A model generated the notes under the pieces. The model saw nothing but the letters and a program-made list of their open reading frames with translations, was not told where the DNA came from and searched no databases. Below, in pieces: positions 32,266 through 46,910 of a stretch of DNA of 64,000 nucleotides. Both the position numbers and the translations under genes were made by a program. Within the stretch, counting starts at the first letter, position 1; each line of letters starts with the position of its first letter. Source of the stretch: Luteimicrobium subarcticum (GTDB lineage: Bacteria; Actinomycetota; Actinomycetes; Actinomycetales; Cellulomonadaceae); NCBI RefSeq assembly GCF_002798015.1, contig NZ_PGTZ01000009.1:248001-312000 (forward strand), given 5' to 3'.

Positions 32266-32912
32266 GCGGCGGTCACCGCGGGGTCCAGGACGACGTGGGC
32301 TCCCGTCGCGGCGACGACGTCGGCCACCGTGACCGCCGGGGCGAGCTGGCGCAGGACCAGGCCGGTCCCGGTGACGTCGAGCACACCGAGGTCGGTGATG
32401 ACACGGTCGACGACCCTCTGCCCCGTCAGCGGGAGGGTGCAGCGGTCCACGAGCTTGGGCGAGCCGTCGCGGGCCACGTGGTCCATCAGGACCACGACCC
32501 GGCGGGCCCCGGCCACGAGGTCCATCGCGCCGCCCATGCCCTTGACCATCGAGCCGGGGACCTGCCAGTTGGCGAGGTCCCCGTGTGCCGACACCTGGAG
32601 GGCCCCGAGGATCGCGACGGCGATGTGTCCACCGCGGATCATCGCGAACGACGTCGCGGCATCGAAGCAGCTGGCACCCAGGTTGGCGGTGATCGTCTGC
32701 TTGCCGGCGTTGATGAGGTCGGGGTCCTCGTCGCCGTCCACGGGGAACGGCCCGATGCCGAGCAGCCCGTTCTCGCTCTGCAGGGTGACGTGCACGTCCG
32801 GGGGGACGTGCTCGGCGACCAGAGTCGGGATGCCGATCCCGAGGTTCACGTAGTCGCCGTCGCGCAGCTCGCTCGCGGCACGAGCAGCCATCTCGTCTCG
32901 GGTCCAGGGCAT
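32262..32912 (-). CDS. 3-oxoacid CoA-transferase, subunit B
   Basis: 216 residues. [35 protein letters not shown] carries the catalytic glutamate (Glu47) in the SENG motif; later [27 protein letters not shown] and [19 protein letters not shown] are family constants. With subunit A it moves CoA from succinyl-CoA or acetyl-CoA to a 3-oxoacid before thiolysis. The start ATG (32910-32912) shares one base with the stop of subunit A, TGATG, so the two are translated in fixed ratio. PcaJ/ScoB-like; the true acid is not known. Confidence 0.9.
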
Positions 32913-33658
32913 CAGGCACCTCCGTGGAGCACCGGCAGGGCCGAGCGCACCGGGGGGCGCTCGCGCACGGTGCGCTTCTCGATCGGACGGTCGTGCGTGG
33001 TGGGGACGAGCGCCGACACGAACACACCGGGCGTCATCACGTCGTCCGGGTCGAGGTAGCCGTCCACCGCCGGGTCAAGGTAGGTCGCGACGGAGGCCAC
33101 GGTGACCGGTGCCGCCATCGCGACGACCGGGTTGAAGTTGCGTGCCGTGCGCCGGTAGCGGAGGTTGCCCGCGGCGTCCCCGACGTGGGCGTGGACCAGC
33201 GCGAGGTCGGCGCGGATCGCACGCTCGAGCACATAGGTGCGGCCGTCGATCTCGGTGGTGGGCTTGCCCTCGGCGACTGTCGTCCCGACGCCGGTCGCCG
33301 TGTAGAAGGCAGGGATCCCTGCGCCACCGGCCCGGAGCCGTTCGGCGAGCGTGCCCTGGGGGACGAGCTCGACGTCCAGCTCGCCGTCGAGGTAGCGCTG
33401 GGCGAAGAGCTTGTTCTCGCCCACGTAGGACGCGAGGACCCGCGAGACCTGGTCGTTCTCGAGCAGCACACCGAGGCCGAGGCCGTCGACGCCCATGTTG
33501 TTCGAGACGACGGTGAGGTCGCGGACACCGGAGTCGCGGACGGCGTCGATGAGGTCGTACGGCACGCCGCACAGGCCGAAGCCGCCCACCGCGAGCGTCA
33601 TCCCGTCGTGCAGCCTGCCGGCGAGCGCGTCGTGCGCGTCGTGGTTCACGGCGGTCAT
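32912..33658 (-). CDS. 3-oxoacid CoA-transferase, subunit A
   Basis: 248 residues. [41 protein letters not shown] is the glycine-rich CoA-binding start, followed by [52 protein letters not shown] and a C-terminal domain [31 protein letters not shown]. Typical length for the PcaI/ScoA class. It is coupled upstream with the FAH gene by ATGA and downstream with subunit B by TGATG. Confidence 0.9.
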
Positions 33659-34680
33659 CGGCCCTCCACCGGGGTTGCGACGGACGTGCCGACCAGGCGG
33701 TGTCGGCGCCGTTCGCGGGACCGCGCCCGGGGGACGACGGGCAGGTCGGCCAGGTCGGGCCCCGGAACCACCCGGTTCTCGACCGTGCCGATGCCCTCGA
33801 CGTCCAGCCGGACGACGTCGCCGGGTGCCAGGGGCGGCGGCACCTGCGCTCCGGACCGCCCCCAGAGCTCGCCCAGGCAGCCGCCGTTGCCGCACGTCCC
33901 GGACGCGAGGACGTCACCCGGGCGGACCCAGGTCCCGCGCGAGGCGTACGCGATCATCTCCTCGAACGTCCACCCGGCGTTGGACAGCAGGTCGCGCCCG
34001 ACGGGGCGTCCGTCGATCGACGCGTCGAGCCCGAGCGCGAGGTAGCCCTCGTCGTCGCGGTGCTGCTCGAGCTCGTCGGCGGTGACGATCCACGGGCCGA
34101 GGGTCGACGCCGAGTCCTTGCCCTTGGCCGGTCCGAGGTTGACCTGCATCTCGCGGCCCTGGAGGTCACGGGCGGACCAGTCGTTGAAGATCGTGTACCC
34201 GAACACGTGGTCGCGCGCCGAGGCGGCCGAGAGGTTGCTCCCGGAGCCCGCCACGACGACCGCGACCTCGAGCTCGAAGTCGAGCACCCGGCAGCCGGGC
34301 GGCACGGGGACGTCGTCGTGCGCGCCGATCATCGAGTGGGGGTTGGTGAAGTAGAACGTCGGGGCGTCGTACCAGGCGTCCGGGACGCCGCCTCCGCCCG
34401 AGACGCTGCGGACGACGCCCTCGACGTGCTCCTCGAAGGTGACGAAGTCACGGACCGACGGCGGTTCCAGGGGAGGCAGGAGACGCACCGCGTCGAGCGG
34501 TACCGCCGGCGAGGTGCGCGTCGCCCAGGCCGCGGCCTCGGCCGCGGCGGCGAGCCCTGCCGTGGCGAGGTCGAGCACGGTGGTGCCGGCACGCAGGGCG
34601 TGGAGCCGTTCCTCGCCGGGCAGGCCCACGACGGCGGCGTCCTGGGCGACGCCGTGCAGCTCGTAGCGCGCGAGCCTCAT
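33655..34680 (-). CDS. FAH-family hydrolase/hydratase
   Basis: 341 residues; N-terminal half about 75 residues of unusual sequence, then the FAH fold: SVRDFVTFEEHVEG, DAPTFYFTNPHSMIG, DFELEVAVVVAGSGSNLS (acidic metal ligands), HVFGYTIFNDWSARDLQGREMQVNLGPAKGKDSASTLGPWIVT, DEMIA-like FEEMIAYASRGTWVRPGDVLASGTCGNG (the GxxxGTxxxG loop). Members include fumarylacetoacetase, hydratases and decarboxylases of ring-cleavage products. Expected to act on the product of the extradiol dioxygenase and hydrolase here. Coupled by ATGA to the monooxygenase upstream and to CoA-transferase A downstream. Confidence 0.85.
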   Translation of the reverse strand: MRLARYELHGVAQDAAVVGLPGEERLHALRAGTTVLDLATAGLAAAAEAAAWATRTSPAVPLDAVRLLPPLEPPSVRDFVTFEEHVEGVVRSVSGGGGVPDAWYDAPTFYFTNPHSMIGAHDDVPVPPGCRVLDFELEVAVVVAGSGSNLSAASARDHVFGYTIFNDWSARDLQGREMQVNLGPAKGKDSASTLGPWIVTADELEQHRDDEGYLALGLDASIDGRPVGRDLLSNAGWTFEEMIAYASRGTWVRPGDVLASGTCGNGGCLGELWGRSGAQVPPPLAPGDVVRLDVEGIGTVENRVVPGPDLADLPVVPRARSRERRRHRLVGTSVATPVEGR

Positions 34681-35816
34681 GCCGGGTCCGTCACGAGCAC
34701 GGAGATGCGGCGCATGAGCCCGGGCACGTCCGCCTCGGAGGGCGGCGTGCGCTCGAGCATCCACCGCGCGACCTGGACCGACGCCTCGACGACCGCGCCG
34801 GCGCGCGGGCGGCGTCGCGCCGCGTACGCGGTCAGGAGCGCCTCGTCGAACGAGTCCGCACCGATCAGGAGCTCGGCGAGCACGGCGGCGTCCTCGAATC
34901 CCTGAGCCGCGCCCTGGGCGATCGTGGGCGGGCACGAGTGCGCGGCGTCACCGACGAGGACCACCCTGCCCCGGTGCCAGTCACCCGGGACGACGTGCGA
35001 CTCGAACCGGGCGTAGTTGACGTACGTGTCGGGGTGCAGGCTCGCGCGCACGTCGTCCCACGGGCCGTGGTACGACGCGGCCAGGTCGCGGAACACCTCG
35101 ACCTGCTCGGCCGCTGTCAGCCCCGAGCGGTCCTGCACGTCCTCGACGAGGTACGCGTACATGCTGTCGGTGCCGGTGGGGCAGTAGCCCGCGATGTAGC
35201 ACCGCCCGCCGTAGGTGAGGTCGGTGCGCTCGACCTGTGCAGGCCGCGGCACGTGGACGCGCCAGATGCCCATGCCGGCGCTGACCGGCTCCGCGTCGAT
35301 GCCCAGCGCGTGGCGGGTCCACGAGTGGATGCCGTCGGCGCCGACGACCAGGTCGTAGCGACCGCTCGAGCCGTCGCCGAAGGCCACGTCGACGCCGTCG
35401 GCGTCCTGGTCGAGGCGTGTCGGGACGGTGCCGTAGCGCACCTTGACCCCGACCTCGGCCGAGCGCTCCAGGAGCAGCCGTGCCAGGTCCGGGCGTGGCA
35501 TCCCGAGCGTCGCGGGCAGGTCGGGCCCACCCGTGCGCACGTCGGGGATCTCGGCGACGAGCGTCCCGGACGGGTCGGGCAGCCGGATGCCGACGGAGTC
35601 GAAGGGGTAGCCCGCAGCGAGGACGTCCTCCCAGACGCCGAGCTCGCGCAGGATCCTCAGGGCATTGCCCTGCAGCGTGATGCCGGACCCCACGGATGGC
35701 ACCTCGGGGCGCTCCTCGACGAGGTCGACGGCGACGCCCTGGGGGGCGAGCAGGATGGCTGCGGCGGTACCGGCGGCGCCGCCGCCGACGATCAGGACGG
35801 AACGAACTGCGGGCAT
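34677..35816 (-). CDS. FAD-dependent aromatic monooxygenase
   Basis: 379 residues, group A flavoprotein hydroxylase. SVLIVGGGAAGTAAAILLAPQGVAVDLVEERPE is the GxGxxG dinucleotide fold, LVVGADGIHSWTRHALG the DG motif, and VVLVGDAAHSCPPTIAQGAAQGFEDAAVLAELL the GD motif for FAD ribityl and access. It would hydroxylate an aromatic ring before meta-cleavage, using NAD(P)H and oxygen. GTGAGGC lies before the ATG. In flavonoid degraders the corresponding enzyme (FdeE in Herbaspirillum seropedicae) puts an OH on ring A; here that is a hypothesis. It begins after the hairpin at 35851-35882. Confidence 0.85.
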   Translation of the reverse strand: MPAVRSVLIVGGGAAGTAAAILLAPQGVAVDLVEERPEVPSVGSGITLQGNALRILRELGVWEDVLAAGYPFDSVGIRLPDPSGTLVAEIPDVRTGGPDLPATLGMPRPDLARLLLERSAEVGVKVRYGTVPTRLDQDADGVDVAFGDGSSGRYDLVVGADGIHSWTRHALGIDAEPVSAGMGIWRVHVPRPAQVERTDLTYGGRCYIAGYCPTGTDSMYAYLVEDVQDRSGLTAAEQVEVFRDLAASYHGPWDDVRASLHPDTYVNYARFESHVVPGDWHRGRVVLVGDAAHSCPPTIAQGAAQGFEDAAVLAELLIGADSFDEALLTAYAARRRPRAGAVVEASVQVARWMLERTPPSEADVPGLMRRISVLVTDPA

Positions 35817-35850
35817 CGTTGCCTCACTTCCGGATGTGACGAGCGGGGGT

Positions 35851-35882
35851 CTCCCCGTCCGGCGACCGTGCCGGACGGGGAG
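35851..35882 (-). terminator. strong intra-operon hairpin (attenuator or terminator)
   Basis: CTCCCCGTCCGGC (35851-35863) and GCCGGACGGGGAG (35870-35882) form a perfect 13-bp stem with a six-base loop in the 85-base gap between the cyclase gene and the FAD monooxygenase gene, all on the same strand. No U tract. It could split the operon into two levels of expression. Confidence 0.7.
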
Positions 35883-35901
35883 GGTGACTCCTGGCGTGCG
35901 A

Positions 35902-36900
35902 CTACTTGAGGGCGACGGGGTTGATCGGCGACCCGACGGCTCCCGTGATCGGCAGCGGCGGCGCCGTGAGGAGGAACTCGTAGACGCCGTCGCGCGCGCA
36001 GTCGGCGCCGAGCTCCTCGAGCGCCCACATCTCCCCGAGGAACAGGCCGAGGTGCGGGATGACGACCTGGTGGAGCGGCTGGAACGCGGCGTCGAACTCG
36101 TTCGGCCGCACCTCGAAGCCCCAGGTGTCGGTCGCGACGGCGGCGACGTCGTGCTCGTGGATCCAGTCGACCGTCGTGAACGACAGGCCCGGTGCGGGGC
36201 CGCCGGCGTACTCGCCCCAGCCCTCGCGCCGGGTGCGTCCGTACTGGCCGGTCCGCACGACGAGGAAGTCCCCGGGGCCGACGTGGGACGTCGGGCCCTG
36301 GGCGGCGATCGTGGCGTCGAGGTGCTCGGGCAGGATCGCGAACCCGTCCGGCAGCTCCCCGTGGGCGGTGTCACCGAGGTGGCGCCCGACGTCGAGGAGC
36401 ACGCCGCGGCCCGTGAAGTCGGAGGCGACGGTCTCCATGCCCGTGACGAGGTCGCCGGCCGAGGTGACGACCTCGGCGGCACGACGACCGTTCCACGCCC
36501 GCCCGTGGTCGAAGATGTGGCCGAGGCCGTCCCACTGGGTCGAGCACTGCAGCGGCATGGAGACGACGTCGTCCGCGCCGCCGATGCCGTGGGGGAGGCC
36601 CTGGTCGCCGAGCTCGGCCTCGACCCCGGTGTCCAGCATGGTGTGCACCGGGTTGGTCCTGCGCCGCCAGCCCTTCTGGGGGCCGTCCATGTCGAACGGT
36701 TGCGCGAGCGAGAAGGGCTGCCCGCGGCGGACGAGCGTCGCGGCGTGGCGCCGGTGCTCGTCCGTCACGAGGTTGAGCGTGCCCTTGACGTCGTCGTCGC
36801 CCCACCGTCCCCAGTTGGAGCAGCGGGCGGCCGCTGCGGCCACGGCTCCCGCGGGGTCGGTGCGGTCGAGCGAGGTCCGGGTCGTCGTGGGGGTGCTCAT
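35902..36900 (-). CDS. cyclase-family (kynurenine-formamidase-like) hydrolase
   Basis: 332 residues. The family metal-binding segment appears as MPLQCSTQWDGLGHIFDHGRAWNG (the HxGTHxDxPxH motif replaced by STQWDGLGH, as in a distinct subfamily), followed by GRGVLLDVGRHLG, DFLVVRTGQYGRTRREGWG and DTWGFEVRPNEFDAAFQPLHQVVIPHLGLFLGEMWALEEL. Such proteins hydrolyse amides or open/close rings; in catabolic clusters they often act on ring-cleavage intermediates. The stop overlaps nothing downstream, but the ATG overlaps the stop of the alpha/beta hydrolase by ATGA. Substrate unknown. Confidence 0.82.
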   Translation of the reverse strand: MSTPTTTRTSLDRTDPAGAVAAAAARCSNWGRWGDDDVKGTLNLVTDEHRRHAATLVRRGQPFSLAQPFDMDGPQKGWRRRTNPVHTMLDTGVEAELGDQGLPHGIGGADDVVSMPLQCSTQWDGLGHIFDHGRAWNGRRAAEVVTSAGDLVTGMETVASDFTGRGVLLDVGRHLGDTAHGELPDGFAILPEHLDATIAAQGPTSHVGPGDFLVVRTGQYGRTRREGWGEYAGGPAPGLSFTTVDWIHEHDVAAVATDTWGFEVRPNEFDAAFQPLHQVVIPHLGLFLGEMWALEELGADCARDGVYEFLLTAPPLPITGAVGSPINPVALK

Positions 36901-38070
36901 GCGGTCCGCCCTCCGAGCCGTTCGGCGACCCAGTCGGAGATCACGTCGGTCGCGACGGAGCCGTTGTCCACGCTCGAGTGCGCCGTGCCGCCGGTGCGGT
37001 CCGTGAACACGACGAGCGCCGGGTCGGGCGACGACGTGAGCTGGTCGTACGTGCGGTGCGCGTACTCGAGCGGGATCTGCTTGTCGTGCTCACCGTGGGT
37101 GACGAGGAACGGCACCCTGATGCGGTCGAGGATCCCGTCGAGGTGGACGTGCTCCGCGATCTCGAAGAAGTCGTCGAGGTCCTTGGCGCCCCACACCCAC
37201 TGGACGTGCTCCCAGTAGTGGGGGACGGGACGTTCGCCCTCCCGGTCGCGGCGAGCCTTCTGCACGGCGCGCCAGTCGTGGTTCGCGCCCCACGCGACGC
37301 CGAGGGCGAACCGCGGCTCGAACGCGACGGCCCGGGGGGCGTAGTACCCGCCGAGGGAGACGCCGAGCAGACCGACCCGGTCGGCGTCGACGTCGTCTCT
37401 CGCCGCGAGGAACTCGTAGACGACCGAGGCCCACTTCTCCGCCTCGGGGACGGCGGGCAGGCCGTGGAGGCGCAGCGCCTCGCCGGTGCCCGGCTGGTCG
37501 ATGCACAGGCTGGAGACACCGCGCGCGGCGAGCTTCGCGCCCGGCCCGGTGCGGTAGAGCATCTCCTTGGTGCTGTCGAGGCCGTTGACCTGTACGAGGA
37601 CCGGCGACGGCCCCTCGTGCACGGTCCCGTCGGGGTCGAGCGCGCGCGTGAGCAGGCCGGACAGGACGGTGCCCTCGTAGGGGATCTCGACACGCTCGAC
37701 GTTCTCCTGGGCGAGGGTCACGCCCTGCTGGAAGGTCGCGAGGAACTTCTGGTAGAGCGCAGCCCGCGGGGCGTGGCCCGCTGCCTGCATGCGCTCTCCG
37801 GTGAGGAAGTAGGTCGCCGCGCGACCGAGCTTCTCCCCGGGCCGACAGGTCGTGACCGGCGGCCTGGTCCTCGTGCGCGAGCTCGACGAGGGTGTCGCCC
37901 TGGCGCTCCCAGCCGGCCATGAGGTCGACGGTGCCGGCGTCCTCACCGCGCGTGGCGGCGTCGAGGAGGGGTCGGCAGACCGCGTCGACCTCGCCGATCC
38001 GCCCGCCCATCTCCAGGGCGAGGTTCACCGAGAGGTTCCAGACATAGTTCCCGGGAAAGTACGCGAACAT
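36897..38070 (-). pseudogene. C-C-type alpha/beta hydrolase, interrupted by a +1 frameshift
   Basis: Two adjacent frames read as one protein of about 390 residues, the usual length of FrsA/2,6-dihydroxypseudooxynicotine-hydrolase-like enzymes. The N-terminal frame begins MFAYFPGNYVWNLSVNLALEMGG (start 38070, one base after the dioxygenase stop) and runs to HDLSAR; the C-terminal frame continues GEKLGRAATYFLTGERMQAAG, then LLGVSLGGYY (nucleophile), HGEHDKQIPLEY and a final histidine region GGTAHSSVDN. The join needs one base less in the CCCCGGG run at 37835-37841 (plus-strand). It is therefore either an early pseudogene or a base-calling error in a homopolymer. Downstream ATGA overlaps are intact, which argues for recent loss or error. 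Confidence 0.85.
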
Positions 38071-38071
38071 G

Positions 38072-39097
38072 TCAGCCCCGGCCCTCGCGCGCGTACGGGT
38101 TGACCAGCTCGTCCTCGGTGCCCGGGACGACCCCCTCCTCGGTGGCGGACGGCTTGCCGGCGTCCGGGGGGAAGCACTCGGTCATCGACATCGGCATGGC
38201 CGAGTTGCGGTAGATGCTGTTGGAGCCGAGGGCGGGCGTCCAGGTGTTCGCCTGCCAGTCCGGCACGTAGTTGCGGTAGCCGTGGGTGTTGAGCTCGATC
38301 CGCATGCCCCCGGGCTCACGGAAGTAGAGGAACGACTGCTCGCCGATGCCGTGGATGCTCGGGCCGTACTCGATGTGCGTGCCGTTCTCCATGAGGACGT
38401 CGGCGGCGACGAGCAGCTCCTGGATCGAGTCGGTCCAGAACGCGATGTGGTTGACGCGGCCACCGCGCGTCGAGGAGTCGAGCACCACCCCGAGGTCGTG
38501 GGACTTCTCGTTCGTGGTCAGGACGGAGAACACCGTGATGTCGGCGTGCTCGATGTCCGTGTACGCCATGATCCGGAACCCGAGGACCTCGCTGTACCAC
38601 GCGGCGAAGCCCTTGACGTCGGGCGAGGCGATGGTGACGTGGTCCAGGAAGCGGGGAGCGGCGGAGTGCGAGCTCCGCTTCTCGGGGCGGTCCGGGAAGA
38701 TCGAGGCGAGCTCGGCCGGCGCGGAGTGCTTCGGGACGTCCCAGTAGAGCTCCATGGTGTGGCCGTAGGGACCGGTGAACTGGAACGAGCGTCCGTGGCC
38801 CTGGCGCTTGTCGTACCAGGTGCCCTCGATCCCCTTGGCCTGCACGCGGGCGGCGGCCTCCTCGAGGGCGTCCGCGCTGCCCGTGCGCCATGCCATGTTG
38901 ACCAGGGCGGGCTCGTCGCCGGGCGTCACGATCAGGCTGTACGGGTAGTAGTCGCCCCAGCAGCGCAGGTAGGTGGTGCCGTCGTCGTCGCGGCTCACGG
39001 CACGCAGGCCGAAGTTCTTCTCGAAGAAGGCGACGGAGCCCTCCACGTCGGGGGAGGCGATCTCCAGGTGGGCCAGGTGGGCCAGCGTGTTCGTCAT
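38072..39097 (-). CDS. two-domain extradiol ring-cleavage dioxygenase (VOC superfamily)
   Basis: 341 residues, two VOC modules as in catechol 2,3-dioxygenase. The N-terminal module starts HLAHLEIASPDVEGSVAFFEKNFGL; the C-terminal module carries the Fe-ligand triad: LDHVTIASPD (His153), GGRVNHIAFWTDS (His217) and GGMRIELNTHGY (Glu268). It should cleave a catechol-type ring by meta cleavage. A conserved tail EYGPSIHGIGEQSFLYFREPGG also fits. Start at 39097 with GAGAGGA; the following hydrolase starts one base after its stop. The likely substrate is the product of the FAD monooxygenase; a FdeC-like flavonoid ring-A cleavage is the best analogy I know, not proven. Confidence 0.88.
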   Translation of the reverse strand: MTNTLAHLAHLEIASPDVEGSVAFFEKNFGLRAVSRDDDGTTYLRCWGDYYPYSLIVTPGDEPALVNMAWRTGSADALEEAAARVQAKGIEGTWYDKRQGHGRSFQFTGPYGHTMELYWDVPKHSAPAELASIFPDRPEKRSSHSAAPRFLDHVTIASPDVKGFAAWYSEVLGFRIMAYTDIEHADITVFSVLTTNEKSHDLGVVLDSSTRGGRVNHIAFWTDSIQELLVAADVLMENGTHIEYGPSIHGIGEQSFLYFREPGGMRIELNTHGYRNYVPDWQANTWTPALGSNSIYRNSAMPMSMTECFPPDAGKPSATEEGVVPGTEDELVNPYAREGRG

Positions 39098-39204
39098 CGA
39101 ACATCCTCTCGGGTCGGTCTTCACCGGTCCGCGGGCGCTGGTACGCCGGAGTGGAGTGCGCTGCGCCGCGCGGCCTGCGACCACCTTGCGCGTCAGTCGG
39201 CGCA

Positions 39205-40065
39205 TCAGGGAAGGCAGTGTCGCTGATGCGGCACATCCGTTTCATCGATGACAGCCGAGGGGATCGGGGACGGGTCGTCGGACGCGGCTGCCAGCCCGTC
39301 CGCGATCGACTTGACCCCGCCGTGCGCGGTCATGCCGCCGTCCACGGGGATCTCCGCTCCGCTCACGTACGACGAGCCGTCGCCGATCAGGAACGTGACG
39401 AGCGCCGCGACCTCGTCGACCGTGCCCGTGCGCCCGAGGGGCGTCTCGGTGACGTTCCCGTCGCGGAACGCCGGGGACGCCGACGCGGTCATCGGGGTCT
39501 CGATGTACCCGGGGTGGACGGCGTTGACCCGGATCCCGCGGGGACCGAGCTCGAGGCACGCGACCCTGGTGAGCCCCCGGAGCGCCCACTTGCTGGTCGT
39601 GTAGGCGACCGGCACGTGCCCGGTGAGGGCGGCGACGGAGCCGACGTTGACGATCGACGACCCGCGCGGCATCAGCGGAGCACAAGCCTGGATGGCGAGC
39701 ACCGGGCCCACGAGGTTCACAGCGTGGACCCGCTCGAGGTCCGCGACGTCGACGTCGAGGAGGCGTGCGCGCCACGTGATCCCGGCGTTGTTGACGAGGC
39801 CGTCGATGCGGCCGAACCGGTTCCTCATGTCGGTTGCCAGGCTCGCCCAGGCGGCGCGGTCCGTCACGTCGTGCCGCCGGTACTCGGTCGTGTCGCCGAG
39901 GGCCTCGGCTGGCGTGTCGGCGACGTCGAGCGCCACCACGTGCGCTCCCGCGGCGGCCAGGGAGCGGGCCTCGGCCGCGCCCTGGCCGCGAGCGGCCCCG
40001 GTGACGACGACGATCTTGCGGGGCAGGCCGGTCGGCGGGCCTGGCGCCTCGTTGCGCAGGGTCAT
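39205..40065 (-). CDS. SDR-family oxidoreductase, divergent from the LysR gene
   Basis: 286 residues. KIVVVTGAARGQGAAEARSLAAAG is the Rossmann TGxxxGxG motif, NNAG follows, SIVNVGSVAAL gives the serine, and VAYTTSKWALRG the Tyr-x3-Lys pair; VHPGYIETPM and GAEIPVDGGMTAHGG end the fold. It uses NAD(P) to oxidise or reduce an alcohol/ketone, possibly a dihydrodiol or side chain of the operon's substrate. It is the first gene on this strand, 107 bases upstream of the dioxygenase, and divergent from the LysR gene by 49 bases. A C-terminal extension of about 25 residues beyond the SDR core is unusual. Confidence 0.87.
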   Translation of the reverse strand: MTLRNEAPGPPTGLPRKIVVVTGAARGQGAAEARSLAAAGAHVVALDVADTPAEALGDTTEYRRHDVTDRAAWASLATDMRNRFGRIDGLVNNAGITWRARLLDVDVADLERVHAVNLVGPVLAIQACAPLMPRGSSIVNVGSVAALTGHVPVAYTTSKWALRGLTRVACLELGPRGIRVNAVHPGYIETPMTASASPAFRDGNVTETPLGRTGTVDEVAALVTFLIGDGSSYVSGAEIPVDGGMTAHGGVKSIADGLAAASDDPSPIPSAVIDETDVPHQRHCLP

Positions 40066-40080
40066 CCGTCGACCTTCGAG

Positions 40081-40094
40081 GGGGTGCGCGCCCC
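40081..40094. promoter_or_regulatory. GC-rich dyad between divergent SDR and LysR genes
   Basis: GGGGTGCGCGCCCC is a near-perfect dyad in the 49-base spacer between the SDR start (40065) and the LysR start (40115). LysR regulators usually bind such dyads between themselves and their target. Weak evidence: the site does not show the common T-N11-A half-sites clearly. Confidence 0.35.
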
Positions 40095-40114
40095 TGGCAA
40101 GGCATGATGTGTGG

Positions 40115-41089
40115 ATGCCGCCCATCAGCCGCGCCGATGCGGACCTGCCGGACCGTGCACAGCGCGTGCGCCGCGTCACCCAGCTCGCGAACCTCGACCT
40201 CAACCTGCTCGTCGCCCTCGACGCGCTGCTGCAGAACCAGGGCGTGACGAAGGCCGCGGTCCAGATGGGGTTGAGCCAGCCGGCCCTGTCGGCGTCGCTC
40301 GCGCGCCTCCGACGTCACTTCGACGACCCGCTGCTCAGCCGCCGGGGCAACGAGTACTTCCTGACGCCGTTGGCGCTGCAGCTCCGGGAGCGCACCCGGA
40401 CGGTCCTGGCCGGGGTCGAGCGGGTGTTCGCCGCAGAGCCCGTCTTCGACCCGGCGACGTCCAGCCGAGAGGTCTCGGTGGTCGCCAGCGACTACAGCGT
40501 GGCGATGCTGGGCGCCCGCGTGGCCGAGATCCTGCACCGGGAGGCGCCCGGCATGCGGCTGCGCTTCGCCGCCAACACGCCGAGCATCGTCGACGACGCG
40601 GCGCACGCCCTCCTCGGCACCGACCTGATCCTGCTGCCGCACGGCTTCATCACCGACATGCCGCACGCCGACCTGCACGAGGACCGGTGGACGTGCCTCG
40701 TCGCCGAGACGAGCACCGAGGTCGGCGACGAGCTCACGCACGAGCAGCTGCGGACGATGCCCTGGGTCATGACCTTCCACAGCCCGACCGCCTCGACGCC
40801 GGCGGCTCGCCGCCTCCGCATGGCGGGGTTCGAGCCACGCATCGAGGTCGTCACCGAGCACTTCCTGACGATCCCGGCCCTCGTCGCGGGGAGCAGCCGC
40901 GTCGGGCTGTTCCAGGAGCGGCTGGCGCGGGCGCTCCCGGCGGCCGCCGGGGTGCGCGCGGTGCGCGCCCCCGTGGACCTCGGCACGCTGGTCGAGGCCA
41001 TGTGGTGGCACCCGGCCAACGACCGGGACCCCGAGCACGAGTACGTCCGGGACGTCTTCCGGCGTGCTGCCCAGGAGTCGTCCGGCTAG
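40115..41089 (+). CDS. LysR-type transcriptional regulator of the aromatic operon
   Basis: 324 residues. NLDLNLLVALDALLQNQGVTKAAVQMGLSQPALSASLARLRRHFDDPLLSRRGNEYFLTP is a full LysR winged-helix (about 26-85); the rest is the periplasmic-binding-like effector domain with DLILLPHGFITDMPHADL and ALVAGSSRVGLFQERLA. The sequence resembles NodD/SyrM- and NagR-type members, which respond to flavonoids and aromatic acids respectively. It is divergent from the SDR gene, so it probably activates the minus-strand operon. A GTG at 40109 has a better AAGG site; ATG at 40115 is conservative. Its TAG shares CTAG with the IclR gene's stop. Confidence 0.87.
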   Translation: MPPISRADADLPDRAQRVRRVTQLANLDLNLLVALDALLQNQGVTKAAVQMGLSQPALSASLARLRRHFDDPLLSRRGNEYFLTPLALQLRERTRTVLAGVERVFAAEPVFDPATSSREVSVVASDYSVAMLGARVAEILHREAPGMRLRFAANTPSIVDDAAHALLGTDLILLPHGFITDMPHADLHEDRWTCLVAETSTEVGDELTHEQLRTMPWVMTFHSPTASTPAARRLRMAGFEPRIEVVTEHFLTIPALVAGSSRVGLFQERLARALPAAAGVRAVRAPVDLGTLVEAMWWHPANDRDPEHEYVRDVFRRAAQESSG

Positions 41090-41877
41090 CCGAGGTCCGC
41101 CTCGGCGAGGTCACGCTCGATCTGGAGACGCGCGTCGAGGAGCAGGGGCAGCAAGGTGCCGGGAAGGCGGTCGGCGAACCGGTCCGACCGGGTCGAGAGC
41201 GTCACCGCACCGACCGCGGTGCCCCAACGGTCGTGGACGACCGCGCCGACGGCCGCGACGCCGCGCTCGGTCTCCTCGATGTTGACGGCATAGCCGTGCG
41301 CCCGCGCTCCGTGGACGTCCGTGAGGAGGCGGTGGAGCTCGTCGGCCGTGAGGTCGCCGGGAGCACCGGCGCTGAAGACGGCCCGGACCTCGTCGTCGGT
41401 GAGCTCGGCGAGCAGCGCCTTGCCCCCCGAGGCCTCGTGCGCCGCCATGACGACGCCGTCCCGGTCGTGGGTCGCGTCGACGGTCCGGGCGCGCACCGTC
41501 ACGAGGAACCGGACGTTCTGGCCGACGCGGATCATGAGGTTCGCCGACTCCTTGCTGCGGCGCGAGAGAACTTCCAGGTGAGGCAGGCTCAGCCGCCGGA
41601 AGTCCCGGCTCCGCTCGAGACGGGCGGGTCCGGCGTCCATCGACGGTCCGGGCAGGTAGACGTGCGACTCGTCCTGCACGGCGAACCCGCGGTACAGGAG
41701 AGTCTGCAACAGGCGGTGCGCGCTGGACCGTGAGATGTCGAGGTGCGCCGACGCGTCGGCCACCCGGACGCTCCCGTAGTCGCGGAGCATCTGGACCAGG
41801 CGCAGCCCGCGGTCGAGGGACTCGACCGCGGCCGGGGGACGGTCGGGCAGAGGTGGGTGGCGCCGCGTGTTCCTCAT
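41086..41877 (-). CDS. IclR-family regulator of the gentisate operon
   Basis: 263 residues. RPPAAVESLDRGLRLVQMLRDYGSVRVADASAHLDISRSSAHRLLQTLLYRGF is the N-terminal winged helix, and the rest the GAF-like effector domain with ASGGKALLAELTDDEVRAVF, HGYAVNIEETERGVAAVGAVVHDRWGTAVGAVTLS, matching IclR. It is divergent from the FAD hydroxylase gene by 48 bases and so is the likely regulator of that operon. Its stop overlaps the LysR stop at the palindromic CTAG (41086-41089), a minimal convergent overlap. Confidence 0.87.
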   Translation of the reverse strand: MRNTRRHPPLPDRPPAAVESLDRGLRLVQMLRDYGSVRVADASAHLDISRSSAHRLLQTLLYRGFAVQDESHVYLPGPSMDAGPARLERSRDFRRLSLPHLEVLSRRSKESANLMIRVGQNVRFLVTVRARTVDATHDRDGVVMAAHEASGGKALLAELTDDEVRAVFSAGAPGDLTADELHRLLTDVHGARAHGYAVNIEETERGVAAVGAVVHDRWGTAVGAVTLSTRSDRFADRLPGTLLPLLLDARLQIERDLAEADLG

Positions 41878-41925
41878 AGCGGGACATCCTCGCGCGCTTC
41901 GCGGCACGCTGCCTAGGGTCCCGGC

Positions 41926-43170
41926 ATGGATCACGACGTGGTGTTCCCCACAGGGACGACAGCAGACAAGACCTTGATCGTCGGCGGCGGCATCTCCGGC
42001 CTCGCAGCAGCGCTCGCTCTGAGGCGCCAGGGCAAGGACGTGACGGTCGTCGAGCAGGCACCGGAGTTCGGCGAGATCGGTGCCGGCCTCCAGCTCGGCC
42101 CGAACGCGACCAGGATCCTCGACGGCTGGGGTCTCCTCGACCAGGTGCGAGACGTGGGTGTCGAGCCTGGCCGGCTGGTCCTTAAGGACGCGGTCACGGG
42201 CGACGAGCTGGCGGCCCTCGACCTGCGCGGCTCGTTCCGCGAGCGCTACGGCGCCCCGTACGTGGTCATCCACCGCACGGACCTCCACAGCATCCTGCTC
42301 GAGGCGTGCCGTGCCGCCGGCGTCGAGCTGGCGACGGCGACGCGCATCGCCCAGGTGTCCCAGGACGACGCCGGGACGGTCGCCCGTGCCGACGACGGCC
42401 GCGTGTTCGAGGCGGCGGTGACGCTCGGTGCTGACGGGCTACGTTCCGCCCTGCGGGACACGATCGTGGGCGACGAGGTCGTCCCGTCCGGGTTCGTCGC
42501 GTACCGGGGGACCGTCCCGACCCACGAGGTCCCGGAGGAGAGCGGGCTCGACGACGTGGTGTGCTGGGTCGCCCCTGACGCCCACGTGGTGCAGTACCGG
42601 CTGCGCGGCGGCAGCGTCCTGAACGTGGTGGCGACCTTCCGCTCGCCGGGGTTCGCCCGCGGCGAGGCCGACTACGGGACGCCGGACGAGCTGGAGGCGG
42701 TGTTCGCCGCCTGCCACCCCCGGGTCCGCGAGGCGGTGTCGCACGTCGGCCGGCAGCGGCGCTGGCCACTTTTCGACCGGGAGCCGGCGGCCCGCTGGAG
42801 CGACGGTCGGGTCGTGCTCGTCGGCGACGCCGCGCACCCGATGCTGCAGTACCTCGCGCAGGGCTGCTGCCAGGCACTCGAGGACGCCCAGGCGCTCGAG
42901 CTGCTCGTGGCGCAGCAGGACGGGCCTACCGACTGGTTGGCTGTCGTTCGGGAGCTCGTCGCGGCGCGCGCGGACCGGACCGCCCAGGTCCAGCAGCGCG
43001 CTCGCGTGTTCGGGGACGTGTGCCACGCCGGGGGTGCCGCGCGCCTGCTGCGCAACGCCCTCCTGGCGCACGCCGAGGACCTGACCGAGTACACCGACTG
43101 GCTCTACGCGGGGACGGTGGCCGAGCGCCTCGCCACCCCCGCTCCCGCCCCTGCCCTCTCGCGCGCCTGA
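41926..43170 (+). CDS. FAD-dependent 3-hydroxybenzoate 6-hydroxylase-like monooxygenase
   Basis: 414 residues, group A flavin hydroxylase. LIVGGGISGLAAALALRRQGKDVTVVEQAPEFGEIGAGLQLGPNATRIL is the FAD fold, LGADGLRSALRDTIVG the DG motif, and GDAAHPMLQYLAQGCCQALEDAQALELLV the GD motif with the AxPxxxQG-type loop of the salicylate/3-hydroxybenzoate hydroxylases. It lies immediately before fumarylpyruvate hydrolase and gentisate dioxygenase, so 3-hydroxybenzoate to gentisate is the natural role; salicylate 5-hydroxylation would need a multi-component enzyme, and salicylate 1-hydroxylase would not lead to gentisate. Confidence 0.85.
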   Translation: MDHDVVFPTGTTADKTLIVGGGISGLAAALALRRQGKDVTVVEQAPEFGEIGAGLQLGPNATRILDGWGLLDQVRDVGVEPGRLVLKDAVTGDELAALDLRGSFRERYGAPYVVIHRTDLHSILLEACRAAGVELATATRIAQVSQDDAGTVARADDGRVFEAAVTLGADGLRSALRDTIVGDEVVPSGFVAYRGTVPTHEVPEESGLDDVVCWVAPDAHVVQYRLRGGSVLNVVATFRSPGFARGEADYGTPDELEAVFAACHPRVREAVSHVGRQRRWPLFDREPAARWSDGRVVLVGDAAHPMLQYLAQGCCQALEDAQALELLVAQQDGPTDWLAVVRELVAARADRTAQVQQRARVFGDVCHAGGAARLLRNALLAHAEDLTEYTDWLYAGTVAERLATPAPAPALSRA

Positions 43171-43193: not shown

Positions 43194-44075
43194 ATGAAGC
43201 TTGCAGTGCTGGACGGCCGCACACCGGTCGTCGTGACCGAGGACCGGGCCGTCGACGTGAGCGCCGTGATCGGCGTGACCGCCGGGTTCGCCGGGCCCTG
43301 GGGGGACTGGCTCGAGCGAGGCCACGACCCGGGGGAGCTGCGCGACCTCGACCTCGCCGGGCTGCCGACGGTCTCGCTCGACGAGGGGCGGCTCACCGCG
43401 CCGCTGGCCCGGCCCCGGAAGATCGTCGCCGCGCCGGTCAACTACCTGGACCACAAGATCGAGATGTCCGAGCAGAAGTCCGTCGCGGACTACGGCGTCT
43501 TCCTCAAGGCCGGCACGTCGGTCATCGGTCCCCGCGAGGTCGTCGAGCTGCCCTACGAGGACCTGCGCACCGACCAGGAGGGCGAGCTCGCCGTGGTGGT
43601 GGGGCGCACCGCGCGCCATGTGACGGCGGACGCCGCCCTCGACCACGTGCTCGGGTACACCTGCGGGCTCGACATCAGCCTGCGGTCCACCGAGGACCGT
43701 TCGACCCGCAAGTCGTTCGACACCTTCACGCCGCTCGGGCCGTGGATCGTGACGGCGGACGAGGTCCCGGACCCCGACGCGCTCGACCTGAGGTGCTGGG
43801 TCGCGGGGGAGCTGCGGCAGGAGACCAGTACCTCCGAGCTGTTGTTCTCGGTGCGTGAGCTGATAGCGTACGCGTCGTCGGTGATGACCCTCGAGCCGGG
43901 CGACGTCATCCTCACCGGGACGCCGGCAGGCGTGGGTCCGCTGCGCGACCGTGATGTCGTCCGCCTCGAGATCGGGTCGGTCGGGACGCTCGAGGTGACC
44001 GTCTCGGGGGCACCTGCCGTCCCGTACGCCTCGCGCCCCCGAGGCCGGGCCGCGCTGGCAGGCGGTGCCCGTTGA
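43194..44075 (+). CDS. fumarylpyruvate hydrolase (FAH family)
   Basis: 293 residues, typical two-part FAH: an N-terminal beta domain, then KIVAAPVNYLDHKIEMSEQ, DYGVFLKAGTSVIGP, EDLRTDQEGELAVVVGRTARHVT (metal ligands), DISLRSTEDRSTRKSFDTFTPLGPWIVTADE and EPGDVILTGTPAGVGPLRDRDVVRLEI. It splits fumarylpyruvate into fumarate and pyruvate at the end of the gentisate path. AGGAG-like CGGAGACC precedes the ATG, 23 bases after the hydroxylase stop. It is only a distant relative of the other FAH gene at 33655. Confidence 0.88.
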   Translation: MKLAVLDGRTPVVVTEDRAVDVSAVIGVTAGFAGPWGDWLERGHDPGELRDLDLAGLPTVSLDEGRLTAPLARPRKIVAAPVNYLDHKIEMSEQKSVADYGVFLKAGTSVIGPREVVELPYEDLRTDQEGELAVVVGRTARHVTADAALDHVLGYTCGLDISLRSTEDRSTRKSFDTFTPLGPWIVTADEVPDPDALDLRCWVAGELRQETSTSELLFSVRELIAYASSVMTLEPGDVILTGTPAGVGPLRDRDVVRLEIGSVGTLEVTVSGAPAVPYASRPRGRAALAGGAR

Positions 44076-45184
44076 GCGCGCAGCCGGGCGACCCCGGCCA
44101 GCCCGACCCGAGCCCCGAGCTCGACCGGCTGTACGCCGACTTCGAGCGCAACAGCATGGCACCGCTGTGGACGCAGACGAACGACCTCATGCCGCTCGCT
44201 CCGCGGCCTTCTGCCGTCCCCTTCGTCTGGCGGTGGTCCGAGCTCCTCGACATCGCCCGCCGCGCCGGCGACCTCGTGCCGGTCGGCCGGGGCGGCGAGC
44301 GACGCGCGATCGGGCTCGCGAACCCGGGTCTCGCCCCCACGGCCTATGCGACCCCGACCCTCTGGTGCGCCATCCAGTGGCTGGGGGCGTTCGAGACGGC
44401 ACCCGAGCACCGGCACGCGCAGAACGCGTTCCGGTTCGTCGTCGAGGGTGAGGGCGTGTGGACGGTCGTGAACGGCGACCCGGTCCGGATGAGCCGCGGG
44501 GACCTGCTGCTGACCCCCGGATGGAACTTCCACGGCCACCACAACGACACGGACCAGCCCATGGCGTGGATCGACGGACTGGACGTGCCGTTCGCCCACG
44601 ACATGGACCTCGGGTTCTTCGAGTTCGGCTCGGAGCGTGTGACGGACGAGGCGTCGCCGCACGTCTCGCGGTCCGAGCGCCTCTGGGCCCACCCGGGCCT
44701 GACCCCGTTGTCGTCGCAGGAGGCTCAGGTGGCGACGCCCCTCGGCGCCTACCGCTGGGAGCACACCGACGCGGCGCTGCGGGAGCAGCTCGCGCTCGAG
44801 GACGAAGGGCACCCGGCCACGGTCGAGCAGGGCCATGCGGCCATCAAGTACACGAACCCCACGACCGGCGGTGACGTGCTGCCGACCATGCGGTGCGAGT
44901 TCCACCGGTTGCGCGCGGGGACGCGGACCGCGACGCGACGCGAGGTCGGTTCGTCCGTGTGGCAGGTGTTCGCGGGAAGCGGCGCGGTCGTCATGGACGG
45001 GGAGCGCCGCGAGGTCGTCACGGGCGACCTGTTCGTCCTGCCGTCCTGGACGGCGTGGTCGCTCGAGGCCTCGGACGAGCTGGACCTCTTCCGGTTCTCG
45101 GACGCACCGATCGTCGAGCGTCTCCAGTTCCAGCGGACGTACCTGCCCGACACGGACAGGCTGTTCCCCGGAAGCCGGGGCTGA
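44072..45184 (+). CDS. gentisate 1,2-dioxygenase
   Basis: 370 residues of the bicupin gentisate dioxygenase type. The first cupin has PEHRHAQNAFRFVVEGEG (Fe ligands His113 and His115) and GWNFHGHHNDTDQPMAWIDGLD (His154 region); the second is at about 285-345. The start is TTG overlapping the hydrolase stop (TTGA at 44072-44075), a rare start codon that suggests deliberate damping of translation. It opens the gentisate ring between C1 and C2 to maleylpyruvate, using Fe(II) and oxygen. Confidence 0.9.
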   Translation: MSAQPGDPGQPDPSPELDRLYADFERNSMAPLWTQTNDLMPLAPRPSAVPFVWRWSELLDIARRAGDLVPVGRGGERRAIGLANPGLAPTAYATPTLWCAIQWLGAFETAPEHRHAQNAFRFVVEGEGVWTVVNGDPVRMSRGDLLLTPGWNFHGHHNDTDQPMAWIDGLDVPFAHDMDLGFFEFGSERVTDEASPHVSRSERLWAHPGLTPLSSQEAQVATPLGAYRWEHTDAALREQLALEDEGHPATVEQGHAAIKYTNPTTGGDVLPTMRCEFHRLRAGTRTATRREVGSSVWQVFAGSGAVVMDGERREVVTGDLFVLPSWTAWSLEASDELDLFRFSDAPIVERLQFQRTYLPDTDRLFPGSRG

Positions 45185-45187
45185 GTC

Positions 45188-45721
45188 GTGCCGGCCCGCC
45201 ACGACCTCGTGACGGATCCTGTGATCCGCGCGGACCTGCTGCTGGCGCGTCGGGGGACGGCGTTCTTCTCCCGACAGCTCGGCGCGCTCTCGGCAGCCGA
45301 CCTGCTCGAACCCTCGGCGGTGCCGGGATGGAGCCGCGCGCACGTCGTCGCGCACGTCGGGTACCACGCGCGGGCGCTGGCGCAGCTCCTCGAGGAGGTC
45401 AGGACAGGTCGGCCCGTCGCCGAGGAGGAGGCCGTGGCGGCACCGGCGGAGCGCGTCGCCTACGGGGCGACGCTCCCGCCGGCCGCGCTGCGGCACCTCC
45501 ACGCGCACGCCGCCGTGCACCTGAGTGTGGAGTGGCGCGACCTCCCGCCGGAGCGCTGGGTGGCGACCGGCTCCCTCGACGGCCGCGACACGAGGGTCGC
45601 CGACACCCCCTGGCGACGCGCTCGGGAGGTGTGGCTCGGCGCGGTGGACCTGGCCGCGGGGGCGACCGTCCGGGACGTGCCGGACGCAGTCACACGGCGT
45701 GAGCCCGTGCCGGCACGCTGA
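45188..45721 (+). CDS. shortened maleylpyruvate-isomerase (mycothiol-dependent, DinB-fold) homologue
   Basis: 177 residues from a GTG three bases after the dioxygenase stop. The MDMPI_N/DinB core is clear: LARRGTAFFSRQLGALSAADLLEPSAVPGWSRAHVVAHVGYHARAL (metal His56) and REVWLGAVDL. The usual second half, E-x3-H, is present only as Glu147 followed by Gly151 (REVWLGAVDL) where a histidine is expected, and the family's C-terminal domain is missing (mature members are about 240 residues). So it may not bind zinc or mycothiol normally. Context still says isomerisation of maleylpyruvate to fumarylpyruvate. It overlaps the convergent LacI gene by 32 bases. Confidence 0.8.
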   Translation: MPARHDLVTDPVIRADLLLARRGTAFFSRQLGALSAADLLEPSAVPGWSRAHVVAHVGYHARALAQLLEEVRTGRPVAEEEAVAAPAERVAYGATLPPAALRHLHAHAAVHLSVEWRDLPPERWVATGSLDGRDTRVADTPWRRAREVWLGAVDLAAGATVRDVPDAVTRREPVPAR

Positions 45722-46745
45722 CCGTGCTGGCACGGACCACGAGGGAGGGTTCGAGCACCACGGCACGGTGGTGGTGCTCGGGCCCACCGCGTGCTTCGTC
45801 GAGGACCAGCTCGGTCCCGACGCGCCCCATCTCCTCGCCGGGCTGCGCGACCGTCGTGATCGGCGTCGGGCTGTCCCAGGCGGCTTGGTTGTTGTCGTAG
45901 CCGACGACCCCCACGGCGCCGGGGACGTCGACGTCGGACATGGCGAACGCCTGCAGGATCCCGGCGGCCAGCAGGTCGGTCGCGGCCACGACGCCGTCCA
46001 CGCGGCCCGCGCGCACGTCGTCGACGAGCGCGCCACCCACCTCCCAGCCGTCGGCGCGGTTGACGCCGGTGGGCACGACCGTGCGGACGTGCTCGGCGCC
46101 GCGCTCGCGGACCGCGCGAGCGAAGCCGCGCGCTCGGTGCTGCACGGGCTCGAGCGCCTCGGGGCCCCCGACGAACACGAGCCGGCGGCGACCGGTGTCG
46201 ACGAGGTGGCTCGTCGCGAGCCAGCCCCCCCGCTCGTTGTCCACCGAGACGCTGCAGAAGCGCGTCGTGGGGACCGCGAGGTTGAGCATCACGGTGGGCG
46301 CCGAGCGGGGCGCCTCGTCGGCGATGGCGGCGAAGTGCTGCTCGTCGTTGAGGGTGAGCAGGAGCCCGGCGACCCGCGCCTGCCCGAACGTCCGCAGGTG
46401 ACGTGTCTCGCGCTCGAGCCGGGTGTCGCTGTTGGCGATCATCAGGGTGTGATCGGCTGCCTCGGCCGCGGTCTCGGCGCCTCGGGCCACGTCGACGAAC
46501 AGGGAGTTGCTCAGGTCGGGCAGGACGATCCCGACGGTCCGGCTGGACCCGGCGGCCAGGGACCGGGCGATGCCGTCCGGCACGTAGTCGAGCAGGGTCA
46601 TCGCGCGGACGACCTTCTCGGTGGTCGCGGGCGCGACGCGGGCGGGGTGGTTGAGGACGTTGGAGACGGTCCCGATCGAGACACCGGCCAGCCGCGCGAC
46701 GTCGGAGATGCCGGTCCGGGAGGGTCCGGGCCTCTTGCTGCTCAT
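45690..46745 (-). CDS. LacI-family regulator of the rhamnoside module
   Basis: 351 residues. ISDVARLAGVSIGTVSNVLNHPARVAPATTEKV is the HTH and hinge; VGIVLPDLSNSLFVDVARGAETAAEAADHTLMIANSD, SVSVDNERGGWLATSHLVDTGRRRLVFVGGPEALEPVQHRARGF and VVGYDNNQAAWDSPTPITTVAQPGEEMGRVG form the sugar-binding domain. It is divergent from the binding-protein gene across a 215-base spacer with two LacI-style palindromes. Start at 46745: AAGGAG lies about 11 bases away; the next upstream ATG extends into the operator region. Inducer unknown, probably a rhamnosyl sugar. Confidence 0.87.
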   Translation of the reverse strand: MSSKRPGPSRTGISDVARLAGVSIGTVSNVLNHPARVAPATTEKVVRAMTLLDYVPDGIARSLAAGSSRTVGIVLPDLSNSLFVDVARGAETAAEAADHTLMIANSDTRLERETRHLRTFGQARVAGLLLTLNDEQHFAAIADEAPRSAPTVMLNLAVPTTRFCSVSVDNERGGWLATSHLVDTGRRRLVFVGGPEALEPVQHRARGFARAVRERGAEHVRTVVPTGVNRADGWEVGGALVDDVRAGRVDGVVAATDLLAAGILQAFAMSDVDVPGAVGVVGYDNNQAAWDSPTPITTVAQPGEEMGRVGTELVLDEARGGPEHHHRAVVLEPSLVVRASTVSVPARAHAV

Positions 46746-46801
46746 CGGTACCGTGCGCTCCTTCGTGCGGCGTCCAAGGTCACGGAACGATATCAGTCGA
46801 A

Positions 46802-46813
46802 TGAAGCGCTCCA
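46802..46813. promoter_or_regulatory. LacI-type operator 1
   Basis: TGAAGCGCTCCA is a near-palindrome (10 of 12 positions) with the AGCGCT core of LacI/GalR operators. It lies 57 bases upstream of the LacI start and on the regulator side of the spacer, so it probably serves autoregulation. Confidence 0.55.
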
Positions 46814-46910
46814 ACCACGCAGGCATCAGTCCTGTCGATGTCCCGCATCGCCGGTTCGGAAGCCATCCCGTGCGGCTTGATCTCGCACGAGCGTGCCGCC
46901 TACCTTCGAT

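Follow-up and report, generated by a model that had tools for sequence, protein, structure and literature searches.

The window analysed here, a stretch of 64,000 nucleotides from Luteimicrobium subarcticum, carries a gentisate operon in which a short gene at 45188–45721 directly follows the gene for gentisate 1,2-dioxygenase (GDO). The product of this short gene, called pseudo-NagL below, resembles the N-terminal domain of the mycothiol-dependent maleylpyruvate isomerase (MDMPI, NagL). The features of the region are as follows.

41086–42288, minus strand: IclR-family regulator; open reading frame as listed, the true start probably lying further in
41926–43170, plus strand: 3-hydroxybenzoate 6-hydroxylase-like FAD monooxygenase, from an NCBIfam profile and a solved relative
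43194–44075, plus strand: FAH-family hydrolase FAH-b, not of the NagK type; its nearest solved structure is the maleylpyruvate hydrolase 6jvw
44072–45184, plus strand: GDO of the NagI type, from solved relatives and NagI peptides
45188–45721, plus strand: pseudo-NagL, a short ligand-less MDMPI_N protein of 177 residues with a GTG start and a TGA stop
45353–45355, plus strand: codon of His56, retained equivalent of the zinc ligand His52 of the Corynebacterium glutamicum enzyme, from the alignment
45479–45562, plus strand: residues 98–125 of pseudo-NagL (helices 98–118 and 121–125 in the model), with ten positions invariant in 33 of 33 ligand-less relatives
45626–45640, plus strand: codons of Glu147-x3-Gly151, a degenerate E-x3-H motif, from the alignment
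45690–46826, minus strand: LacI-family regulator, tail to tail with pseudo-NagL

The best solved relatives of the dioxygenase are named gentisate 1,2-dioxygenase (E about 1e-177), and six Rhodococcus NagI peptides (PMC3937715) match it at 10 of 16 to 9 of 9 residues. Its NCBIfam gentisate score is 247 bits, below the cut-off of 442 bits. The monooxygenase also stays under its profile cut-off (NF006021, 388 bits against 459), and its best solved relative, 4bjy, is named probable salicylate monooxygenase. The gap between the GDO stop and the pseudo-NagL start is 3 nucleotides, in agreement with the coupling to GDO described in the initial annotation, and the final 32 bases of pseudo-NagL (45690–45721) are shared with the end of the LacI-family gene, which converges on it. 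A second aromatic gene cluster on the minus strand at 31072–40203 encodes a thiolase, a CoA transferase, another FAH hydrolase, an FAD monooxygenase, a PF04199 cyclase, an S9-type hydrolase, a VOC dioxygenase and an SDR; in the genomes G090, G021 and G081, some of this cluster is found again close to the GDO locus.

Pseudo-NagL matches the Pfam family of the MDMPI N-domain, PF11716, from profile position 2 to 140 of 140 (E 3.1e-21) and the NCBIfam domain TIGR03083 with 66.9 bits against a cut-off of 50; the Pfam match to DinB_2 is sub-threshold and MDMPI_C is not found by Pfam. Residues 13–170 align with C. glutamicum MDMPI (2nsf; phmmer, E 4.1e-34), in which the zinc ligands are His52, Glu144 and His148 (PMC4351081). 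In this alignment, which the initial annotation had proposed as a check, His52 corresponds to His56 and Glu144 to Glu147, both kept, and His148 is replaced by Gly151, confirming that the third zinc ligand is lost. The same column as His56 holds Ala in 2nsg, the H52A mutant. An AlphaFold2 model of pseudo-NagL, built on 38 aligned sequences, has a pLDDT of 94.0, and the nearest solved chains to it are 2nsg and 2nsf (VIA Z 23.2 and 21.1). As for membership of the MDMPI family, the N-domain and the DinB-type fold are present, and the His-Glu-His triad and the C domain are absent. In MDMPI, Arg222 of the C-terminal domain bridges to Asp151 (PMC8562490). A tblastn search (E ≤ 1) of the forward frames in the 600 bases downstream of ten short loci found no C-domain remnant in any of them, and both full-length controls matched. 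Therefore, a frameshift is unlikely, and together with the occurrence of the short form in eight other genomes this result led us to reject a frameshift or assembly error; the missing C-terminal domain and the length of 177 residues thus stand as first described.

Pseudo-NagL has the N-domain sequence, the fold and the gentisate operon in common with C. glutamicum MDMPI, but it differs from it in lacking the third zinc ligand and the C domain, in its altered pocket loops, and in its position directly behind GDO, whereas most triad-bearing loci of the same GTDB family have MDMPI behind NagK. The four-helix DinB fold is also common to the DinB and S-transferase-like bacillithiol and mycothiol transferases. 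Eight such transferases of Bacillus subtilis are metal-dependent and have three invariant His residues in common (PMC5815605), whereas the metal triad of pseudo-NagL is incomplete. The sequence comparison suggests that pseudo-NagL descends from the N-terminal domain of NagL. Because it has lost one zinc ligand, the C domain and most conserved residues of the pocket loops, it probably no longer isomerises maleylpyruvate, and the inactivity suspected in the initial annotation is to this extent probable.

A homologue of pseudo-NagL is present in 34 of 221 genomes of the GTDB family (E ≤ 1e-15). The alignment of 96 homologues comprises family matches, named genomes and an order-wide sample. Set aside in the analysis were L149, which runs to a contig end, L034, whose match is split over two frames, overlapping loci of one gene, and three order-sample matches without loci. 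Nine actinobacterial homologues are short (175–191 residues), all nine lack the third ligand, and their open reading frames are intact in every case. The residues at the three ligand positions are HEG in the window and in G192, QEA in Cellulosimicrobium terreum, HEA in G175, HVG in G210, HLA in G090, G021 and G081, and HER in G285. By comparison, H-E-H is found in all 84 long homologues and in all 89 rows of a comparison set, defined as all rows minus the nine short proteins, 25 alphaproteobacterial proteins, L007 (H-E-H) and the cut L149. In the eight short members of the family of the window, 2 to 4 nucleotides separate the GDO stop from the start of the short gene, and GDO is the immediate neighbour in eight of the nine actinobacterial ligand-less loci. 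The HER protein of G285 (locus L160, from another family of the order) lies in the gene order GDO–NagK–protein, with NagK kept. A protein of 198 residues from a Georgenia MAG (L007, 1723–2319) has H-E-H without the C domain, and of 21 positions subject to decay in the short forms, 5 are altered in it, so it looks like an intermediate stage. Its locus consists of GDO, the 198-residue protein and an FAH-b-type hydrolase whose start overlaps the preceding stop. Another protein, L157, with 199 residues and H-E-H, seems to retain the C-terminal end.

Plasmid searches returned 36 records with the short protein as query and 62 with GDO as query, and 25 alphaproteobacterial loci from Agrobacterium, Rhizobium, Sinorhizobium, Ochrobactrum, Shinella, Nitratireductor, Phaeobacter, Sulfitobacter, Pseudosulfitobacter, Celeribacter and Paracoccus were sampled. 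Outside the sample are 20 of the 36 short-protein records (16 further Pseudosulfitobacter and four others) and, from the 62 GDO records, among others further Pseudosulfitobacter, Phaeobacter gallaeciensis, Streptomyces, Nonomuraea, R. antarcticus, Agrobacterium H42 and H66, Rhizobium H65, Arthrobacter H40 and two unlisted ones. A pseudo-NagL homologue lies behind GDO in all 25 loci, at a spacing of –8 to +23 nucleotides in 23 of them by annotation or script; the values for L171 and L179 hinge on the choice of start codon, and that for L167 is –4 by script and +17 by annotation. None of the 25 homologues has a complete H-E-H triad, and 20 different triads occur among 24 of them, L192 being left out. 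The glutathione-dependent isomerase gene maiA lies in the same stretch in 23 of the 25 loci (19 annotated, 4 by tblastn); it was not found in L191, nor in L179, whose stretch ends early. Two of the homologues, L191 and L184, fall under the PF11716 cut-off and were recognised by alignment, helix and position, and seven other scanned proteins, one of them actinobacterial, exceed it. In L192, on a plasmid of Paracoccus albus (5544–5843), the GDO partner is shortened to 99 residues; maiA was matched there in two pieces, and IS elements lie nearby. Some homologues, such as L167 and L171–L173, carry a C-domain-like tail, which Pfam does not confirm for L171. In L182 (5529–7031, plasmid pTiCFBP4996), a fusion protein of 500 residues joins a ligand-less MDMPI_N domain with an FAH hydrolase, and maiA is next to it. 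Mycothiol has been described as unique to Actinobacteria (PMC4935862). No gene of the pseudo-NagL type adjoins the betaproteobacterial GDO of Acidovorax (L193, 60% identity).

These relatives bear on how the initial annotation had read the gene, which was right on the anatomy and partly right, hence partly supported, on the interpretation. It had suggested that the protein might use another ligand; this is not supported, as no substitute zinc ligand is common to the ligand-less proteins: the third position is G, A or R in actinobacteria, the alphaproteobacterial triads are as varied as described above, and the other ligands are lost too. Its suggestion of a binding chaperone for a different isomerase fits poorly with the neighbourhoods, in which the constant neighbour is GDO, accompanied by a separate isomerase in alphaproteobacteria and by none evident in the group of the window. 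It had named two findings that would count against it. One holds, as this length is the usual one within a clade, and the other does not, as the metal ligand has not moved to another place.

The losses are unevenly distributed along the protein. Taking as reference the 66 positions at which 66 or more of the 69 long homologues agree, all 11 conserved positions of residues 98–125 are kept in all nine short forms, and none of the 23 in loops 66–93 and 126–143 is (Fisher p 2e-5 for 98–125 compared with all other positions, a value that treats related sequences as independent). Across nine actinobacterial and 24 alphaproteobacterial ligand-less proteins, the 99-residue L192 being left out, the same thirteen residues are present in all 33: A61, R62 and P97, and ten within 98–125, namely A100, R102, L104, H107, H111, L112, V114, R117, D118 and W124. 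The residue of the long type is kept at N60 in 0, at Y80 in 1 and at M143 in 0 of the 33, and the zinc-ligand residues are kept at H56 in 12, at E147 in 11 and at H151 in 5. In C. glutamicum MDMPI, whose isomerase activity has been characterised (PMC4360819), positions 111 and 118 are Arg and Glu instead of the His111 and Asp118 of the ligand-less proteins, indicating that isomerisation does not need all thirteen invariant residues. A Rhodococcus opacus homologue with H-E-H also departs at both positions. The dN/dS ratio (NG86) is 0.22–0.50 in 13 of 13 short-form pairs, a rough estimate because the synonymous distances are large and NG86 is the sole method for most pairs, and 0.13–0.37 in ten pairs of triad-bearing homologues. 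With dN/dS below 1 and all nine actinobacterial frames open, the short genes do not have the marks of pseudogenes.

The alphaproteobacterial partners group together in one clade (98/91), whose sister group consists of actinobacterial H-E-H proteins including that of Rhodococcus p52, and the actinobacterial short forms branch elsewhere on the tree, at two or three positions. That all ligand-less forms had one origin is disfavoured, with a p-AU of 0.02 when all 30 ligand-less rows are forced together on a tree that excludes L179, L185, L189 and L192. A single loss among the actinobacterial short forms alone is not rejected on the MPI tree (p-AU 0.066); on the GDO tree the value for a single origin is 7e-13 for the nine alone and 0.23 with Georgenia L007 added. 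Thus the trees favour several independent losses of the ligands. In the GDO tree, a quick one without bootstrap, the alphaproteobacterial GDOs form one group (SH-aLRT 98) with those of Rhodococcus p52, G226 and G234, a grouping that fits transfer of both genes together.

A possible reason why isomerisation became unnecessary lies in the hydrolases. The best solved match of FAH-b is 6jvw (E 1.5e-57 over residues 1–270). In the hydrolase tree, 14 FAH-b proteins and 6jvw form one clade (100/99; 6jvw was flagged for a long branch), and 11 NagK-type proteins and 6j57 form a separate one (100/99). All four Rhodococcus NagK peptides fit the NagK-type hydrolase (FAH-a) better than FAH-b. Maleylpyruvate hydrolase is represented by the structures 6jvw and 6jvv and by the HbzF route of P. 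alcaligenes, which needs no isomerase (PMC5658364, PMC11603403). FAH-b lies within the GDO operon in the window, G176, G192, G175 and G210; in G192 and G175 a further gene separates the two. Because this operon hydrolase groups with 6jvw, FAH-b in the group of the window probably cleaves maleylpyruvate directly to maleate and pyruvate, so that isomerisation would be bypassed.

The distribution of the hydrolases partly follows that of the short forms. A NagK-type match of 49–100% identity (E 1e-61 or better) is present in all 26 triad-bearing family genomes, and the best NagK match in all eight short-form family genomes has 41–48% identity (E 1.5e-50 or weaker); the gap is narrow, since the weakest triad genome, G234, stands at 49% and the strongest short-type genome at 48%. 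In G234 the NagK-like gene next to MDMPI is split into two pieces (52 and 54%), and in G219, which has a full-length MDMPI, NagK is absent between MDMPI and GDO and the best NagK-like match (56%) is on another contig. The genus-mates G001 and G002 have a NagK match at the same 41–48% level, and no homologue of pseudo-NagL was found in them. The NagK-type fumarylpyruvate hydrolase gene is missing in eight of the nine genomes with the short form, so that a strict coupling of ligand loss to NagK loss holds for the eight family genomes and is broken by G285. As G285 keeps NagK and FAH-b was not found within the 20-kb stretch around its locus, the bypass does not explain this case. At E ≤ 1e-75, FAH-b is present in 29 of 221 family genomes, eight with the short form and 21 of the 26 with an intact triad, and in the seven triad genomes for which coordinates were compared (G015, G028, G034, G070, G093, G095 and G186) it is 5–14 kb from the MDMPI gene. 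In G090, G021 and G081 some 12 kb separate it from the short gene, an arrangement like that of relatives with full MDMPI, and a further FAH-type gene, in the opposite direction and far from both FAH-b and NagK on the tree, adjoins GDO (L126, L127 and L128); the bypass is therefore weaker there.

Other sources of isomerase activity were considered. Among 14 actinobacterial genomes, no zeta-class GST isomerase of the MaiA type was found (the family matched 3 of 14 control genomes, above cut-off in one), and maiA was rejected as the isomerase source in actinobacteria. Loss of mycothiol was likewise rejected, since MshC is above cut-off in 13 of 14 genomes, including all eight short-type family genomes, in which mycothiol is probably made; in G001 it matches in pieces. 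A search for maleate isomerase (Amdase) gave 0 of 36 matches, and no positive control matched in it.

Repeated decay of the pocket, with the helix and the position after GDO retained, in loci that have either another isomerase or a hydrolase that may make one unnecessary, is best accounted for by an accessory role. We give a rough probability of 0.57 to the reading that pseudo-NagL is a metal-free pseudo-isomerase that persists because of a function connected with GDO, such as docking, stability or activation. The homology, the losses, the retained positions and the adjacency to GDO, found by computation together with trees favouring repeated loss, are its basis; proteins of the proposed class are immediate neighbours of GDO in 25 of 25 alphaproteobacterial and eight of nine actinobacterial loci. 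According to this reading, the NagL lineage would have had a second function tied to GDO, carried by the helical stretch 98–125 and the conserved core, and the protein may dock on GDO and stabilise, activate or re-activate it. Where isomerisation became unnecessary, the pocket would decay and the second function would stay. The isomerase would be dispensable in the group of the window probably because the FAH hydrolase cleaves maleylpyruvate, and in alphaproteobacteria because the glutathione-dependent MaiA may have taken over. Pseudoenzymes are kept as partners of active enzymes in other systems, with catalytic residues lost and the fold and some surface retained, and pseudo-NagL shows the same combination. 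In the open-access literature searched, no description of a pseudoenzyme partner or GDO accessory was found for this family.

There are three alternatives. It is unlikely that pseudo-NagL is a decaying relic, a gene on its way out after the isomerase became redundant, with no function left. In favour of a relic are the scattered ligand sets (HEG, QEA, HEA, HVG, HLA and HER in the nine actinobacterial proteins, 20 kinds among 24 alphaproteobacterial ones), the lost pocket residues, the dN/dS values above most of those of the ten active-type pairs, and the L192 plasmid copy reduced to 99 residues. But a full-length N-domain remains in 33 of 34 ligand-less proteins, the thirteen positions are invariant across two phyla, dN/dS is below 1 in every short pair, and the losses in separate lineages leave identical residues. 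Quite unlikely is a supply of isomerase in trans from another MDMPI-family protein, with FAH-b acting on fumarylpyruvate and the short protein left with a small or regulatory part to play, such as the binding of maleylpyruvate. The genome does encode a paralogue (G000, C8, 20789–21427; L073, L161) that has H and E-x3-H and ends like MDMPI at its C-terminus. But this paralogue has an 84% identical counterpart in G002, a genus-mate in which the search gave no homologue of pseudo-NagL, and was not found at 1e-10 in G210, G090, G021 and G081. Moreover, FAH-b groups with the maleylpyruvate hydrolase and not with 6j57 and NagK, and the ligand-binding pocket is the part that decays.

Continued isomerisation of maleylpyruvate by the short protein, through a metal-free or different-thiol mechanism, is very unlikely, since His, Glu, His and the pocket loops are all lost in some members without a common replacement, and maiA is also present in 23 of 25 alphaproteobacterial loci. 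On its side stand the persistence of the protein in gentisate loci, the mycothiol that MshC suggests for all eight short-type family genomes, and G285, where NagK is present and no other isomerase was recognised in the 20-kb stretch.

The accessory reading has its own difficulties: the helix 98–125 may be kept partly for folding, the adjacency to GDO is partly inherited, and G285, the distance of FAH-b in G090, G021 and G081, and the possible trans-acting MDMPI paralogue remain as points against a tidy story. Also to be counted against it are the presence of FAH-b in most triad-bearing family genomes, the search for maleate isomerase that gave no match, the single actinobacterial loss that the MPI tree does not reject, and the GDO score under the gentisate cut-off. 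A more specific version, to which we give slightly less than even odds, is that NagL is bifunctional, being both an isomerase and a subunit that docks on or activates GDO through 98–125, and that it decayed several times independently into a metal-free GDO accessory wherever direct hydrolysis or MaiA replaced the isomerase. If the accessory reading is true, it would reveal a partner for gentisate dioxygenase, a central ring-cleaving enzyme. The family would then offer a natural repeated experiment, in which catalysis was apparently lost several times and the same residues were kept. Proteins annotated as maleylpyruvate isomerase that are encoded behind GDO and lack the zinc triad are probably not isomerases, and an isomerase-free version of the actinobacterial gentisate route, using a maleylpyruvate hydrolase, becomes directly testable.
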